DNA of 64,000 bases from Verrucomicrobiota bacterium. Its GTDB lineage: Bacteria; Verrucomicrobiota; Verrucomicrobiia; Limisphaerales; VHCN01. Shown here piece by piece: positions 34,175 to 60,434 of the stretch (its first letter is position 1; each line of letters begins with the position of its first letter). The notes below the pieces were generated by a model, which was given only the letters and a program-made list of their open reading frames with translations, was not told where the DNA came from and made no database searches. The stretch spans positions 1 through 64,000 of the forward strand of contig VHCN01000003.1 of assembly GCA_016871675.1 (NCBI GenBank), given 5' to 3'. A program made the translations under genes and the position numbers.

Positions 34175-34567
34175 TCAGGGCTTCGCTGCGGGGCGGGCGG
34201 TGTGGTCCTGGATGACCTTGACGCGATCGTCGAGTTGCACCGGCTTGGACCGGGAATACATCCCGTTTCCGTCGAGGCTCCGGGCGGGCGCCTCGTCGGG
34301 CGTGATTGTCCCGGTCAGGAACACGATCGGAATGCGGGCGAGTGAGCGGTCGGCGCGGGTGCGCGCGGGGAGTTTCGTGCCGTCCATGCCGGGCATGATG
34401 ACGTCCAGCAGGATGATGTGCGGCTGGAAGACCCGCGCGGCGGCGGGCGCGTTGCCGGAGGCGTTCTCCTCGCGGACGTGGTCGCCGCCGCGCTGATCGA
34501 GGTTCAGCTTTCCCATGCGGGTGAAGGCGACGTCGTCATCCACGATCAGGATTCGCTTTGGCTGCAT
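34175..34567 (-). CDS. Single-domain response regulator (receiver only)
   Basis: 130 aa, ATG at 34567. RILIVDDDVAF supplies the acidic pocket (D10-D12), HIILLDVIMPGMDG the phosphoacceptor D55, IVFLTGTITP the Thr, and SRSKPVQLDD the Lys. No output domain follows. It overlaps the 3' end of the sensor gene (34536) by 32 bp, so the two are translated together and probably interact. Residues 27-45 are diverged (GGDHVREENASGNAP). Single-domain regulators act through protein contacts or phosphorelay. Confidence 0.85.
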   Translation of the reverse strand: MQPKRILIVDDDVAFTRMGKLNLDQRGGDHVREENASGNAPAAARVFQPHIILLDVIMPGMDGTKLPARTRADRSLARIPIVFLTGTITPDEAPARSLDGNGMYSRSKPVQLDDRVKVIQDHTARPAAKP

Positions 34568-36242
34568 CGGGGGGGGCGGCGGCTTTGAGGATGACGGTGG
34601 CGCAAACGCCGGAGCCGCCGCGGCGGTTCTGGATGGCGATGTTGCCGCCGTGCATCTCGATGACTTTCTTGGTCACGGTGAGCCCGAGGCCGGTGCCCTT
34701 GCCGGCGGGCTTCACCGTGAAGAACGGGTCAAAGATGCGGCTGAGTTTTTCGGGCGGGATGCCCGTGCCCGTGTCCTCAATCTCGAGGATCAACGACGGC
34801 TCGGCGCGCCGGAGCAACCGGGTGACGCGACGGTCGTTGTCGGACTCGACCTCGCCGTGGTTGGGCTGGTGGAAGCGCGTGCGCACGGTGATGGTGCCAC
34901 CGCCGGGCATGGCTTCGATCGCGTTGGTCAGCAGGCTGACGAGCACCTGCTTGATGCGGCCGCCGTCCACAAAGGCCTTCGGCAGGTTTGGATCAAGTTC
35001 GCGCACAGCCGTGCAGCCGCCGTCCTTCAATTCGTGTTCAAGCATCTGTAGCGACGCTTCGAGCACTGCGTTGAGGTCGGCGGGCACAAGTTCGAGTTTG
35101 CCGGGCGAGACAAAGTCGAGCAGGCCGTTGAGGATCGTATCGGCCCGGCGGAGCGCCTCGGTCGAGTCGAGCGTCGCGGCGGCGGGCGCCCCGGGGAGCG
35201 CCTTGAGTTGGTCGAACCCGGCGCGCGCGGTGTCGAGCGCGCCCTTCATCTCGAGGGCGAAGCCCGCGGCGAGCCGGCCGACGATTTGCGTGCGCTCCAT
35301 CTGGATGATGTGGCCATGGGCTTCCTTGACCTCGTTGTGCTTTTCGCGAAGGTCGGAGAGCGCCTTGAGGACCTCCTCTCGGCTGCGGGCGAGGTCGGCG
35401 TTGGCCTGCTGGATCCGTTCCTCGGCGAGCTTCCTCTCGGTCACGTCCCAGAAGATCCCCTGGATGCCGATCACCTGTTTGTCGCGGTCACGGATGGGCG
35501 TCTTGACGACTTGGACGTAGCGTTTGCCGCCGCCGGGCGGTTCGTGTTCCTCGACCGTTTCGAAGACCTGCCCGGTCTGCATCACAACGCGGTCGTCGCG
35601 CTGGTACTTCTCGGCGAGCTCGGGGGGGAAAAAATCGAAGTCCGACTTGCCGACGATCTCCTCCATCGGCCGGCCGAGTTCGGCGAGGAATTTCTGGTTG
35701 CCGAAGGTGAAACGACCCTGCGGGTCCTTGCGCAGGATGAACTGCGGCAGATTGTCCACGAGCGACTGGTAAAACGCCTCCGAATGCCGCAGCGCCTCCT
35801 CGGCCCGTTTGCGCTCGATCGCGTAGCGCAGCGAACGCGCGAGCAGGGGGCTGTCCACGCTTCCCTTCACGAGATAATCCTGCGCGCCCGAATGCACCGC
35901 GTTCACGGCGGCATTCTCATCGTCGAGCCCGCTCATCACGAGAATCGGCATCGCGGGCGCCTGCGCGCGGACGATGTCGAAGGTCTCGAGGCCGAAACTG
36001 TCCGGCAGCGAGAGGTCGAGCAGCACCACGCCGAAAGAACCCTTGGCGAGGCATTCCAGACCCTTGCCGAGCGAGGCCGCATGGGTGACTTCGAACCGCG
36101 CGGATGAAGGCTCCGAGAGCATCGCCTGGATGAGCAGGGCGTCCGCCGGGTTGTCCTCGATCAGCAGGACGTGGATCAACGGCAAACCCGAGACCGGTCC
36201 GCTGCCGGCGACTTTCGAGAAGATGGACGTGTCCTTGCTCAT
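34536..36242 (-). CDS. Receiver-PAS-kinase sensor protein with a Leu in place of the phosphorylated His
   Basis: 568 aa from the ATG at 36242 (the ORF continues 16 codons upstream). N-terminal receiver (about 22-140) with E29/D30, phospho-Asp D76 and K126; PAS domain with the following PAC (about 150-275, ending GIFWDVTERKLAEE); coiled coil 275-315; DHp region 315-350; HATPase about 385-555 with N box N440 (LLTNAIEAMPGG), DTGTGIPPEK at 490-499, FDPFF, and G2 box GKGTGLGLTVTK. The DHp block reads VGRLAAGFALEMKGAL; the family has His where Leu330 stands (codon CTC against CAC). ATP binding is intact but self-phosphorylation on His is unlikely. Its partner may be the receiver gene it overlaps. 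Confidence 0.88.
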   Translation of the reverse strand: MSKDTSIFSKVAGSGPVSGLPLIHVLLIEDNPADALLIQAMLSEPSSARFEVTHAASLGKGLECLAKGSFGVVLLDLSLPDSFGLETFDIVRAQAPAMPILVMSGLDDENAAVNAVHSGAQDYLVKGSVDSPLLARSLRYAIERKRAEEALRHSEAFYQSLVDNLPQFILRKDPQGRFTFGNQKFLAELGRPMEEIVGKSDFDFFPPELAEKYQRDDRVVMQTGQVFETVEEHEPPGGGKRYVQVVKTPIRDRDKQVIGIQGIFWDVTERKLAEERIQQANADLARSREEVLKALSDLREKHNEVKEAHGHIIQMERTQIVGRLAAGFALEMKGALDTARAGFDQLKALPGAPAAATLDSTEALRRADTILNGLLDFVSPGKLELVPADLNAVLEASLQMLEHELKDGGCTAVRELDPNLPKAFVDGGRIKQVLVSLLTNAIEAMPGGGTITVRTRFHQPNHGEVESDNDRRVTRLLRRAEPSLILEIEDTGTGIPPEKLSRIFDPFFTVKPAGKGTGLGLTVTKKVIEMHGGNIAIQNRRGGSGVCATVILKAAAPPDAAKANPDRG

Positions 36243-56471: not shown

Positions 56472-59168
56472 TCAAGATCGCCGCGGGAGCGGATCCGGCT
56501 GAGTGGCGGCCCGCGTGCTGGGCGCAGGCCGTTTTGAATCGGGAGAACCGTGCGCCGCGGATGTTTCGACGCCGGCCGCCGAAGCGGCGGGCTGGACTGC
56601 GTGCACGGAATCGGCCGGTTGAACGCGCTCCACTTTCGCGATTGCCATGCCCTTGGCCACTCCATCCAACAGCACCGAAATGATGCGCTTGAGCGCGAGC
56701 TGTTCCTCGCGGAATAGCCAGACCAGCGCCGGCAGTGCGATGAGAAGAAACGCAAGCCACCAGAGCGAGGAGCCGAGCGCGCTGATGAGCAGGATTTCAA
56801 ATCCCAGCGCGGTCCAGAAGGTGACGTGCGCCAGCAGGCTCCAGCCCGTCCGCAGTCGGCAGCGGAGCAGCCGGCGGCCGCGGGCGTGAAGTTCCGTGGC
56901 GGTCGTGAGCTGGAGCCAGCACCAGCGGCTGCCGGACACCTCGACGTCGAACCGGCTCCAGCCTGAGTCGGTCTTGTTCTGCCAGCCCTGCGCGGCGAGC
57001 CGCTCGATGACGCAACGCAGGAATTCCATGCGGTCCACGCCAGTTTCGCACCAATAGCCCACCTCGCCGAGCGACGAGCGCGAGCGCTTGAGCGTGAGCG
57101 AGTCGAGTGTCTCGTGCGCGGCGAGCGGCGTGTGGCGGAGCGTGAGGCGTTCCGCGTATCGCGCCCAGCCGCGCACGATCGGCTGGAGGAAGAACATCGT
57201 GGCGATGAGCGGCCGCGAGCGGGCGCGGCGCTTCTTGCGCGGCAATTCCGCCTGCCACGCCGCCGCGATGCAGAGCGCAAGCGAGATGAAAAGGCTCGTG
57301 ATGCCGAGCGGCATGAGCAGGTGGAACTTCACCCCCGCGAACGCCGCGCCGATCGTGAGCAGCGGAAGCGTGACGCAGACATGATACTCGAGACTCGTGA
57401 GAAGCGTCGGTGCATGGTTCGGTGAGCCCGAGTAGATGGACTGGAAGAAGCCGCTCGCGAACGTGCCGTGATAGATCATGTCCTGCCGCGTGACGACGCC
57501 GGGTTTGGCGGGCGAGTAGATGCGTCCCTGCCAGAGACTGCCGCCGATGGCGTTGAAGTATTCCGGATGCTTCCGCACGAGCAGCGCCTCGGCCGCGCCG
57601 TAGCCGCGTTGCTGCCGCAGATACGCGGCGACCGTCGAGCGCCGGTAGTGCCACACGAAACCCGCGGGGCTGAAGCCAATCTTGTGTCCGTGCTGTTGCA
57701 ACCGCCAGCACACGTCCACGTCGTCGCCCGCCGCGTGAAAGATCGGGTCAAAGCCGCCGACCTCGTCGAGCGCCCACTTGTAGAACGCCATGTTGCAGCC
57801 GGGGATGTGCTCGGCCATGCGGTCCGTCAACATCACGTGCGCCGGCCCGCCCGGCGAAACCATCACCGCGGCCGCCACCCATGAATCTTCCGGCGGAAGG
57901 AAGTTGTGCCCGCCGATTCCCGCGAAGTCGCTGTTCAGCAAGTCGCCGACGAGGTAGTGCAGCCAGTCTTCATCCGCGCGGCAGTCGCTGTCGGTGAACG
58001 CGACGATTTCCCCGCGCGCCGCCGAGATGCCCGTGTTGCGTGCGACGGAGAGGCCGAGGTTTTGCGGGTGGCGGATGTTTCGAATGCCCTTGTGCAGAGT
58101 CGCGATCTGCTGTGTGTCGTCCGTCGAGCCGTCGTCCACGAGGATGATTTCGAAGTTCGGGTAATTGAGCCGCTCAAGCGAGCCGAGGCACGCCTTGAGG
58201 GTGTGGGCGCCATTGTAACTTGCGACGACGACCGAGACCCTCGGCGTGCGGGGCAGCGGGAAATACGGCGCGGCTTGGAACAGCTCGCGGACGGCTGCCG
58301 CGCTTTCCTTCGGCTGTCGGTCGCGCGTGGTGATGCCAAACGCCCAGTCCTCGATCGCGCGGCCGTCCGTGTGCCAGTCGTCGGAAAACCCAAACACAAT
58401 CACGCCCGCAAGCCCGCCCCGAAAGGCCGCCTCGATCTGCCATCGCAGACACTCGGACTTCTTCGGCTCGCCCTCGCGAATCGAGTCCATCCCAAACTCG
58501 CCAAGCAGAAGCGGCTTGGAGTCCGCGATCATCTGCAGGCGGGCGAGGTAGCTCTCGAACGGCTTCGGTGGGTGGAGGTAAACATTGAACGTGAGGAAGT
58601 CCACGTTTTGCGGCCGCAGGAATTCCGTCGGAGGATAATTCGCGAAGGTGCACAGCAGGTCGGGATCCTCGGCCTTCGCAACATCCACCAATTCGTCGAT
58701 GAACTCGGCGACGGCCTTGGGGCCGCTCCAGCGCACGATGTCCGCCGGGATTTCATTCACCACGCTCAGCGCGAAAACCGCGGGGTGCTTGGCGCAGAGG
58801 CGCGCGCCCTCCGCGACGGCGGCGCGCGCCCGCTCGCGGTGCGCCGCCGAATCGAGGAAGCACTGGTGTTTGGCCCACGGAACGTCCACGAACACTTTCA
58901 GCCCGTTCTCGGCCGCCAGGTTGAGGAACCAGCGCGGTGGCAGCTCGTAAATGCGGATCAGATTCGCGCCGAACCCGCGGATCTGGTCGAAGTCACGAGC
59001 GGCCTGCTCGCGGGCGGGGAACGGTTCACCTGCCGCGTTCGGCACGAAGGGTCCGTAGGCCAGGCCCTTCGCGTGGAACTTGCGGTCGGCGAGACGGAAG
59101 AACTTTCCGTCCACGCTCACGCGCGGTTGCGAGGAGAGAGGGACTGGCACGGGGCTTGGACGGCGCAA
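56472..59168 (-). CDS. Fusion of a TIM-barrel glycoside-hydrolase-like domain and a GT2 glycosyltransferase with membrane helices
   Basis: 898 aa with a TTG at 59168; the true start may be a nearby GTG. Residues about 15-300 form a GH2/GH5-like TIM barrel: HAKGLAYGPFVPNA, ANLIRIYELPPRWFLNLAAE, then acid/base-type VVNEIPADIVRW (E139) and nucleophile-type LLLGEFGMDSIREG (E224). From 310 a GT2 GT-A fold: VSVVVASYNGAHTLKACLGS, DDGSTDDTQQ, DSDCRADED and DPIFHAAGDDVDVCWRLQQH. C-terminal half: several membrane helices, with LPLLTIGAAFAGVKFHLLMP, SLLAHVTFWTALGFEILLIS and ALGSSLWWLAFLLIALPALV. It likely sits in the inner membrane, building or trimming a glycan. No signal peptide precedes the hydrolase part. 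Confidence 0.85.
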   Translation of the reverse strand: MRRPSPVPVPLSSQPRVSVDGKFFRLADRKFHAKGLAYGPFVPNAAGEPFPAREQAARDFDQIRGFGANLIRIYELPPRWFLNLAAENGLKVFVDVPWAKHQCFLDSAAHRERARAAVAEGARLCAKHPAVFALSVVNEIPADIVRWSGPKAVAEFIDELVDVAKAEDPDLLCTFANYPPTEFLRPQNVDFLTFNVYLHPPKPFESYLARLQMIADSKPLLLGEFGMDSIREGEPKKSECLRWQIEAAFRGGLAGVIVFGFSDDWHTDGRAIEDWAFGITTRDRQPKESAAAVRELFQAAPYFPLPRTPRVSVVVASYNGAHTLKACLGSLERLNYPNFEIILVDDGSTDDTQQIATLHKGIRNIRHPQNLGLSVARNTGISAARGEIVAFTDSDCRADEDWLHYLVGDLLNSDFAGIGGHNFLPPEDSWVAAAVMVSPGGPAHVMLTDRMAEHIPGCNMAFYKWALDEVGGFDPIFHAAGDDVDVCWRLQQHGHKIGFSPAGFVWHYRRSTVAAYLRQQRGYGAAEALLVRKHPEYFNAIGGSLWQGRIYSPAKPGVVTRQDMIYHGTFASGFFQSIYSGSPNHAPTLLTSLEYHVCVTLPLLTIGAAFAGVKFHLLMPLGITSLFISLALCIAAAWQAELPRKKRRARSRPLIATMFFLQPIVRGWARYAERLTLRHTPLAAHETLDSLTLKRSRSSLGEVGYWCETGVDRMEFLRCVIERLAAQGWQNKTDSGWSRFDVEVSGSRWCWLQLTTATELHARGRRLLRCRLRTGWSLLAHVTFWTALGFEILLISALGSSLWWLAFLLIALPALVWLFREEQLALKRIISVLLDGVAKGMAIAKVERVQPADSVHAVQPAASAAGVETSAAHGSPDSKRPAPSTRAATQPDPLPRRS

Positions 59169-59248
59169 GGGTCGCGCGCAGTCACGCGGCGAGTTCTACG
59201 GGAAGCGGCGGGGCGAATCAAGCGGGCGCCGGGCTTCCGATGAACGAG

Positions 59249-59273
59249 GCTTCGGACTCAACCGTTCCGAAGC
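59249..59273. repeat. 8-bp inverted repeat upstream of rsgA
   Basis: GCTTCGGA at 59249-59256 is mirrored by TCCGAAGC at 59266-59273 with a 9-nt loop. It lies in the 190-bp gap between the GH-GT fusion start and rsgA. A small stem, no T-run; its role is unknown. Confidence 0.35.
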
Positions 59274-59360
59274 AACGGCCGGCGCTCCATCTGGCGCGCC
59301 GATTCGCCAGTGGACTTTGGCGCCGGCCTCCACTAGAAACACTGGCGTGGATGCACTGAC

Positions 59361-60434
59361 ATGGATTTGACGTCGTTCGGCTGGAACACCGCCTTCGAGC
59401 AGGCGTTCGCGGTGCATCAATCCACGGGCCTCAAGCCCGCGCGCATCGTCGCGGAGGCCAAGCACCAATTCACCGCGCTGACCAAGTCGGGGCCCCTCGA
59501 GGCGACGCTTTCGGGGCGCTTCCTGCACCAGGCCGAATCGAGGGCGGCGCTGCCCAAAGTCGGCGACTGGGTCGCGATCGAGCCGCTCGCCGGGGAGGAC
59601 AAGGCCATCATCCATCACGTCCTGCCGCGGCGGACCCGGCTTTCGCGCAAGGCGGCGGGCCGCGACCTCGACGAGCACGTGCTCGCGGCGAACGTGGATG
59701 TCGCGTTCGTCGTGCAGGCGCTGGACGCGAGTTTCGACCTGCGCAAACTCGAGCGCGTCCTCATCATGGCTTACGAAGGGGGAGTCGCGCCCGTCGTCGT
59801 CCTGAACAAGACCGATTTGTGCGGGGATCTCGAGGCGCGTCTCGCCGAGGCGCGAGTCGTCGCCGGCGCGGCACCGGTGCTCGCCGTCTGCGCCCGCACG
59901 GGGCACGCCGTGCGCAAGCTGCTTGACCACGCCAAGCCGGGGAGCACCACGGTGTTCGTCGGACCTTCGGGCGTGGGGAAGTCGAGCCTCATCAACCGCC
60001 TGTGCGGCGACGACGCCCAGCCGACCATCGAGGTTCGGGCGCGCGACGCGAAGGGCCGTCACACGACGACGTGGCGCGAGATCATCCCGCTGCCCAACGG
60101 AGCGTTCGTCATCGACACGCCCGGATTGCGGGAATTCCACCTGTGGCTCGCGGGCGAGGGAATGCCCTCGGCGTTTGCGGACATCGAGGACCTCGCGTTG
60201 CAGTGCCACTTCCGCGGATGCTCGCACACGAACGAGAAGCGCTGTGCCGTGCAGGCCGCCGTCGAGACCGGCCAACTGCCGGCGGCCCGCCTTGCGAACT
60301 ACCTCAAACTTCAGCGCGAACTCAAGCACGTGGCCACCGAGTCCCGTGAACTGGCTTACCTGGCCAGGAAGCGCAACGCCCGCGCCGCCTCGCGCCCGTC
60401 CCGCAGGTTCACGGAAGATTCGGACGCCGGTTGA
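59361..60434 (+). CDS. rsgA: Ribosome small-subunit-dependent GTPase A
   Basis: 357 aa, ATG at 59361. N-terminal OB-like barrel (LSGRFLHQAESRAALPKVGD), then a circularly permuted GTPase: NKTD (G4) before GPSGVGKSSLINRLCG (G1), and DTPGLREFHLWLAGEG (G3). The C-terminal zinc knuckle CHFRGCSHTNEKRCAV binds Zn. It helps mature the 30S subunit. Ends 41 bp before a minus-strand tRNA-Glu. Confidence 0.95.
   Translation: MDLTSFGWNTAFEQAFAVHQSTGLKPARIVAEAKHQFTALTKSGPLEATLSGRFLHQAESRAALPKVGDWVAIEPLAGEDKAIIHHVLPRRTRLSRKAAGRDLDEHVLAANVDVAFVVQALDASFDLRKLERVLIMAYEGGVAPVVVLNKTDLCGDLEARLAEARVVAGAAPVLAVCARTGHAVRKLLDHAKPGSTTVFVGPSGVGKSSLINRLCGDDAQPTIEVRARDAKGRHTTTWREIIPLPNGAFVIDTPGLREFHLWLAGEGMPSAFADIEDLALQCHFRGCSHTNEKRCAVQAAVETGQLPAARLANYLKLQRELKHVATESRELAYLARKRNARAASRPSRRFTEDSDAG

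Follow-up and report, generated by a model that had tools for sequence, protein, structure and literature searches.

The window, by which we mean the whole stretch of 64,000 nucleotides analyzed here, carries on its minus strand a pair of overlapping genes, one for a putative pseudo-histidine kinase and one for a single-domain receiver. The features discussed below are the following:

34536..36242, minus strand: gene of the putative pseudo-histidine kinase, with an ATG start and an open reading frame of 568 aa, supported by Pfam domains and an AlphaFold2 model
Domains of the 568-aa protein, in residues: REC 23-135, PAS 156-285, coil 286-320, DHp 321-384, HATPase 385-556
36015..36017, minus strand: codon of Asp76, the nearly invariant phospho-acceptor of the N-terminal receiver domain
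35229..35267, minus strand: degenerate H-box region, residues 326-338, reading AGFALEMKGALDT where homologues have AG(V/I)AHEVKNPLA..
35253..35255, minus strand: CTC codon of Leu330, at the position of the phospho-acceptor His, which is H in 36/36 other distinct homologues
34175..34567, minus strand: partner single-domain receiver gene, 130 aa, retaining its acidic pocket, D10/D11, D55, T85, and K108 and overlapping the kinase gene by 32 bp

A preliminary description of this DNA had reported a leucine at the site of the phosphorylated histidine, in a long and undamaged frame with an N-terminal receiver domain bearing D76, and a 32-bp overlap with a single-domain receiver gene. All of this holds when the minus-strand frame (36242..34536) is read again, and the two-gene pair proved to be conserved in relatives. 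The codons around residue 330 are TTC GCC CTC GAG ATG AAG GGC GCG CTC (F-A-L330-E-M-K-G-A-L), and the whole block of the protein reads AAGFALEMKGAL. The frame is open and its GC3 (0.86) is the same as in the genes nearby. On the minus strand, eight C in a row (34569-34576) lie shortly before the receiver ATG, toward the 3' end of the kinase frame; with one C less, the kinase frame would continue into the receiver gene, making a single hybrid-kinase frame.

The replacement of the histidine does not stand alone. H330L, V332M, N334G, P335A, and A337D occur together in the DHp, whose loop also carries an in-frame deletion of four residues relative to homologues. The phospho-acceptor motif of HisKA domains is H-E/D-x-x-N/T-P, and its His, Asn/Thr, and Pro positions are here occupied by L330, G334, and A335. 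Pfam recognizes Response_reg, PAS, and HATPase_c domains in the protein, but HisKA gave no match even at E<=1, while the orthologue L040 scores 41 bits for it. We compared 37 distinct DHp sequences including this one, the homologues being mostly from the same order, and the gene of the window was the sole exception: the other 36 all have the His, Asn, and Pro of the block, mostly as (V/I)AHEVKNPL. The His-bearing sequences are more distant homologues, and a single genome of the window's family entered the comparison. The possibility of a family of His-less kinases common to relatives was also considered, and no other His-less copy was found among the 30 best loci of a search with the DHp fragment in 320 genomes of the order.

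These multiple lesions bear on how the leucine arose. The genome is a draft of 149 contigs, and CTC differs from CAC by one base, so that a sequencing or assembly artifact at Leu330 could be suspected. A single-base error is rejected, however, since several codons are changed and four are deleted in frame within the same domain, with the frame and the GC3 pattern preserved; an artifact of any kind is very hard to credit. The preliminary description had also proposed that, if orthologues all had the histidine, the change would be a recent mutation. The first half of this proposal stands, with His in all 36 distinct homologues. The second does not: more than one lesion in the block rules out a single recent base change, and the sequence thus indicates that the replacement of His330 is not one recent mutation.

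Homologues of the kinase were sought in the 320 genomes of the order and in a contig collection, a set in which the window genome is the sole member of its family. The best ones (L120-L128) share approximately 52-56% identity with it across most of the protein, and the genes in L040 and L121 are one and the same. These orthologous REC-PAS-HisKA-HATPase kinases have the domain order found in the window and, in every locus checked, a single-domain receiver gene downstream, but all of them carry the canonical (V/I)AHEVKNPL block that the window protein lacks.

The HATPase_c domain of the protein scores 78.8 bits in Pfam, more than the 69.3 bits of the orthologue L040. The preliminary description had taken all the ATPase boxes to be intact, which is correct for N440, DTGTG, FDPFF, and GTGLGL, but the N box carries Ser436 in place of its first Asn, which is present in 17/17 compared homologues. 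Hence, the ATP site may be weakened. We also built an AlphaFold2 model of the protein from 12 sequences (mean pLDDT 81.8, pTM 0.40). It places in order the REC domain, the PAS domain, a long helix (268-348) that includes Leu330, a loop, a second helix (360-378), and the ATPase domain. The DHp reaches only 53-78 pLDDT, such that the model is compatible, with moderate confidence and without being a proof, with a retained helical hairpin.

The residues that were lost suggest which activities were lost with them. The HisKA kinase CrdS requires H371 and E372 to act as a kinase and N375 to act as a phosphatase, and its H371A mutant is still active as a phosphatase (PMC3510030). These three residues map to positions 330, 331, and 334 of the window protein. 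Since L330 and G334 stand at the equivalents of H371 and N375, neither activity is expected, and the analogy suggests that the protein is probably without both. The phosphatase action that had been proposed earlier is therefore disfavored, because the Asn four residues past the histidine is Gly334. The same N334G change argues against a protein acting only as a phosphatase. A related idea is that phosphorylation moved to another site: two histidines lie in the coil (His309 and His311, window positions 35310-35318), and 17/17 other homologues have Gln at position 309. Yet they are 19-21 residues upstream of the lost His and have no acidic neighbor. We regard a phosphatase-only protein or an alternative-site kinase as a very remote prospect.

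The protein could instead borrow a histidine, forming a mixed dimer with another kinase whose His would be phosphorylated in trans by the ATPase domain encoded in the window. This would fit the intact G1, F, and G2 boxes, the second Asn of the N box, and the normal constraint on the CA domain. There is also a precedent for heterodimerization, that of the pseudokinase ChrS with HrrS (PMC9491836), although what ChrS lost is its CA domain. But the dimerization helices are the fastest-changing part of the window protein, and its own genome is without a close DHp paralogue, the next matches being approximately 30% identical. A borrowed histidine thus seems improbable to us.

The rates of evolution differ among the domains. 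We computed for each part of the pair the ratio of the window branch length to the rest of the tree, with the topology fixed from the concatenated pair and 40 bootstrap replicates each. The ratio is 0.067 for REC+PAS (bootstrap 0.047-0.089), 0.17 for CA, 0.26 for the partner receiver gene (0.16-0.36), and 0.49 for the DHp (0.29-1.13); none of the bootstrap ranges of the last three overlaps that of REC+PAS. We then counted private residues, i.e., those absent from every other sequence, in the window pair and in the orthologues L122 and L125. The counts (window/L122/L125) are close in REC (20/18/21), PAS (13/16/15), and CA (42/36/41), whereas the window is far ahead in the DHp (23/5/6), the coil (11/4/6), and the partner receiver (35/13/14), a contrast with a Fisher p of ~2e-4 to 3e-4. 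From these sequence comparisons, the REC, PAS, and ATPase domains are about as constrained as in the catalytic orthologues, and the DHp, the coil, and the partner receiver have evolved ~2-4 times faster.

Such a pattern could reflect early, piecemeal decay, in which the pathway fell out of use, with the DHp and the partner receiver drifting first and the rest being still without stops. The fastest parts are indeed these two. The missing stop codons were considered as an argument against decay, but if all private changes were neutral, a conservative count gives only ~4.4 nonsense changes expected in the whole pair and ~1.4 in the DHp and receiver. Because these expectations are low, the absence of stops is weak evidence. 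The window's own genome also gave fewer first-look candidates for the kinase (42) than most relatives with the gene, all but one of those with a close homologue giving about 90-420; this low count may reflect a smaller signaling repertoire. Against decay, the REC, PAS, and CA domains are no faster than in the His-bearing orthologues, a pace that a dead gene would not have held over the time of the DHp changes, and both receivers have kept their catalytic residues. We consider decay unlikely, if still a sizable chance. What tips the balance to a pseudokinase is that REC, PAS, and CA are under normal constraint, which also suggests that the cell still produces and uses the protein.

We therefore favor, with a confidence only somewhat above even, a lineage-specific pseudo-histidine kinase that, like DivL, senses and binds without phosphorylating. 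Signaling by change of shape would then be the best reading. The protein would neither autophosphorylate at residue 330 nor dephosphorylate its partner. D76 of the N-terminal receiver and D55 of the partner receiver would get phosphate from the other kinases or the Hpt proteins of the cell. The PAS ligand, the phosphorylation of the receiver, and the binding of ATP could together determine the conformation of the helical dimer, and this dimer would act by binding, as a scaffold, by sequestration, or by allosteric control of another kinase in the manner of DivL. The genome encodes 8 HisKA and 2 Hpt domains, which are possible phosphate donors for D76 or D55. On its contig 11 (about 57500-60300, L002/L003), a frame of 1654 aa combines a HisKA and an Hpt domain with a PAS domain that shares 55% identity with the PAS of the window protein; this large hybrid kinase is a candidate donor. 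Four points weigh against the pseudokinase reading: the Leu330 state is known from one genome, without a close relative to inform on its age or on selection; relaxed selection would equally give a faster evolution of the DHp and the receiver; Ser436 may weaken the ATP site; and the analysis turned up no protein through which a non-catalytic role would be exerted.

To our knowledge, few bacterial pseudo-histidine kinases have been characterized, and our literature search for a survey of His-less kinases found nothing specific. DivL is the best studied of them and represents an old, fixed conversion. In Caulobacter crescentus, this His-replaced kinase works by binding a phosphorylated receiver, with no kinase activity (PMC4211667), and action by binding is likewise what we propose for the window protein. 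Both have PAS domain(s) before the kinase module, a replaced His, and other kinase boxes largely kept (PMC4211667), and the window protein has the makings of a pseudo-histidine kinase, with Leu330 for the His in a kinase fold whose hairpin is predicted at moderate confidence. But the His is a Tyr in nearly all DivL homologues across alphaproteobacteria (PMC4211667) and a Leu, in one genome, here; unlike DivL, the window protein has also lost the N and P of the block and has an N-terminal receiver domain. No sequence relation to DivL outside the generic ATPase domain was found: the best stretch against DivL (4q20) covers only residues 408-558. ChrS of Corynebacterium glutamicum also shows that an inactive histidine kinase can still affect signaling via a related kinase (PMC9491836), but its CA domain was lost by a frameshift in a laboratory strain (PMC9491836), whereas here the CA domain was kept and the DHp changed.

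We tentatively suggest, as a conjecture with well under an even chance, that a Verrucomicrobiota-like lineage made an independent, DivL-like conversion to a pseudokinase that reads receivers, having lost both activities, kept ATP binding, and rewired its receiver to other kinases. Orthologous gene pairs with an intact His are available for comparison, and it is the parts involved in phosphotransfer that have diverged, while those for sensing and ATP binding are constrained. Hence, this locus would make the turn from kinase to pseudokinase open to a direct test.
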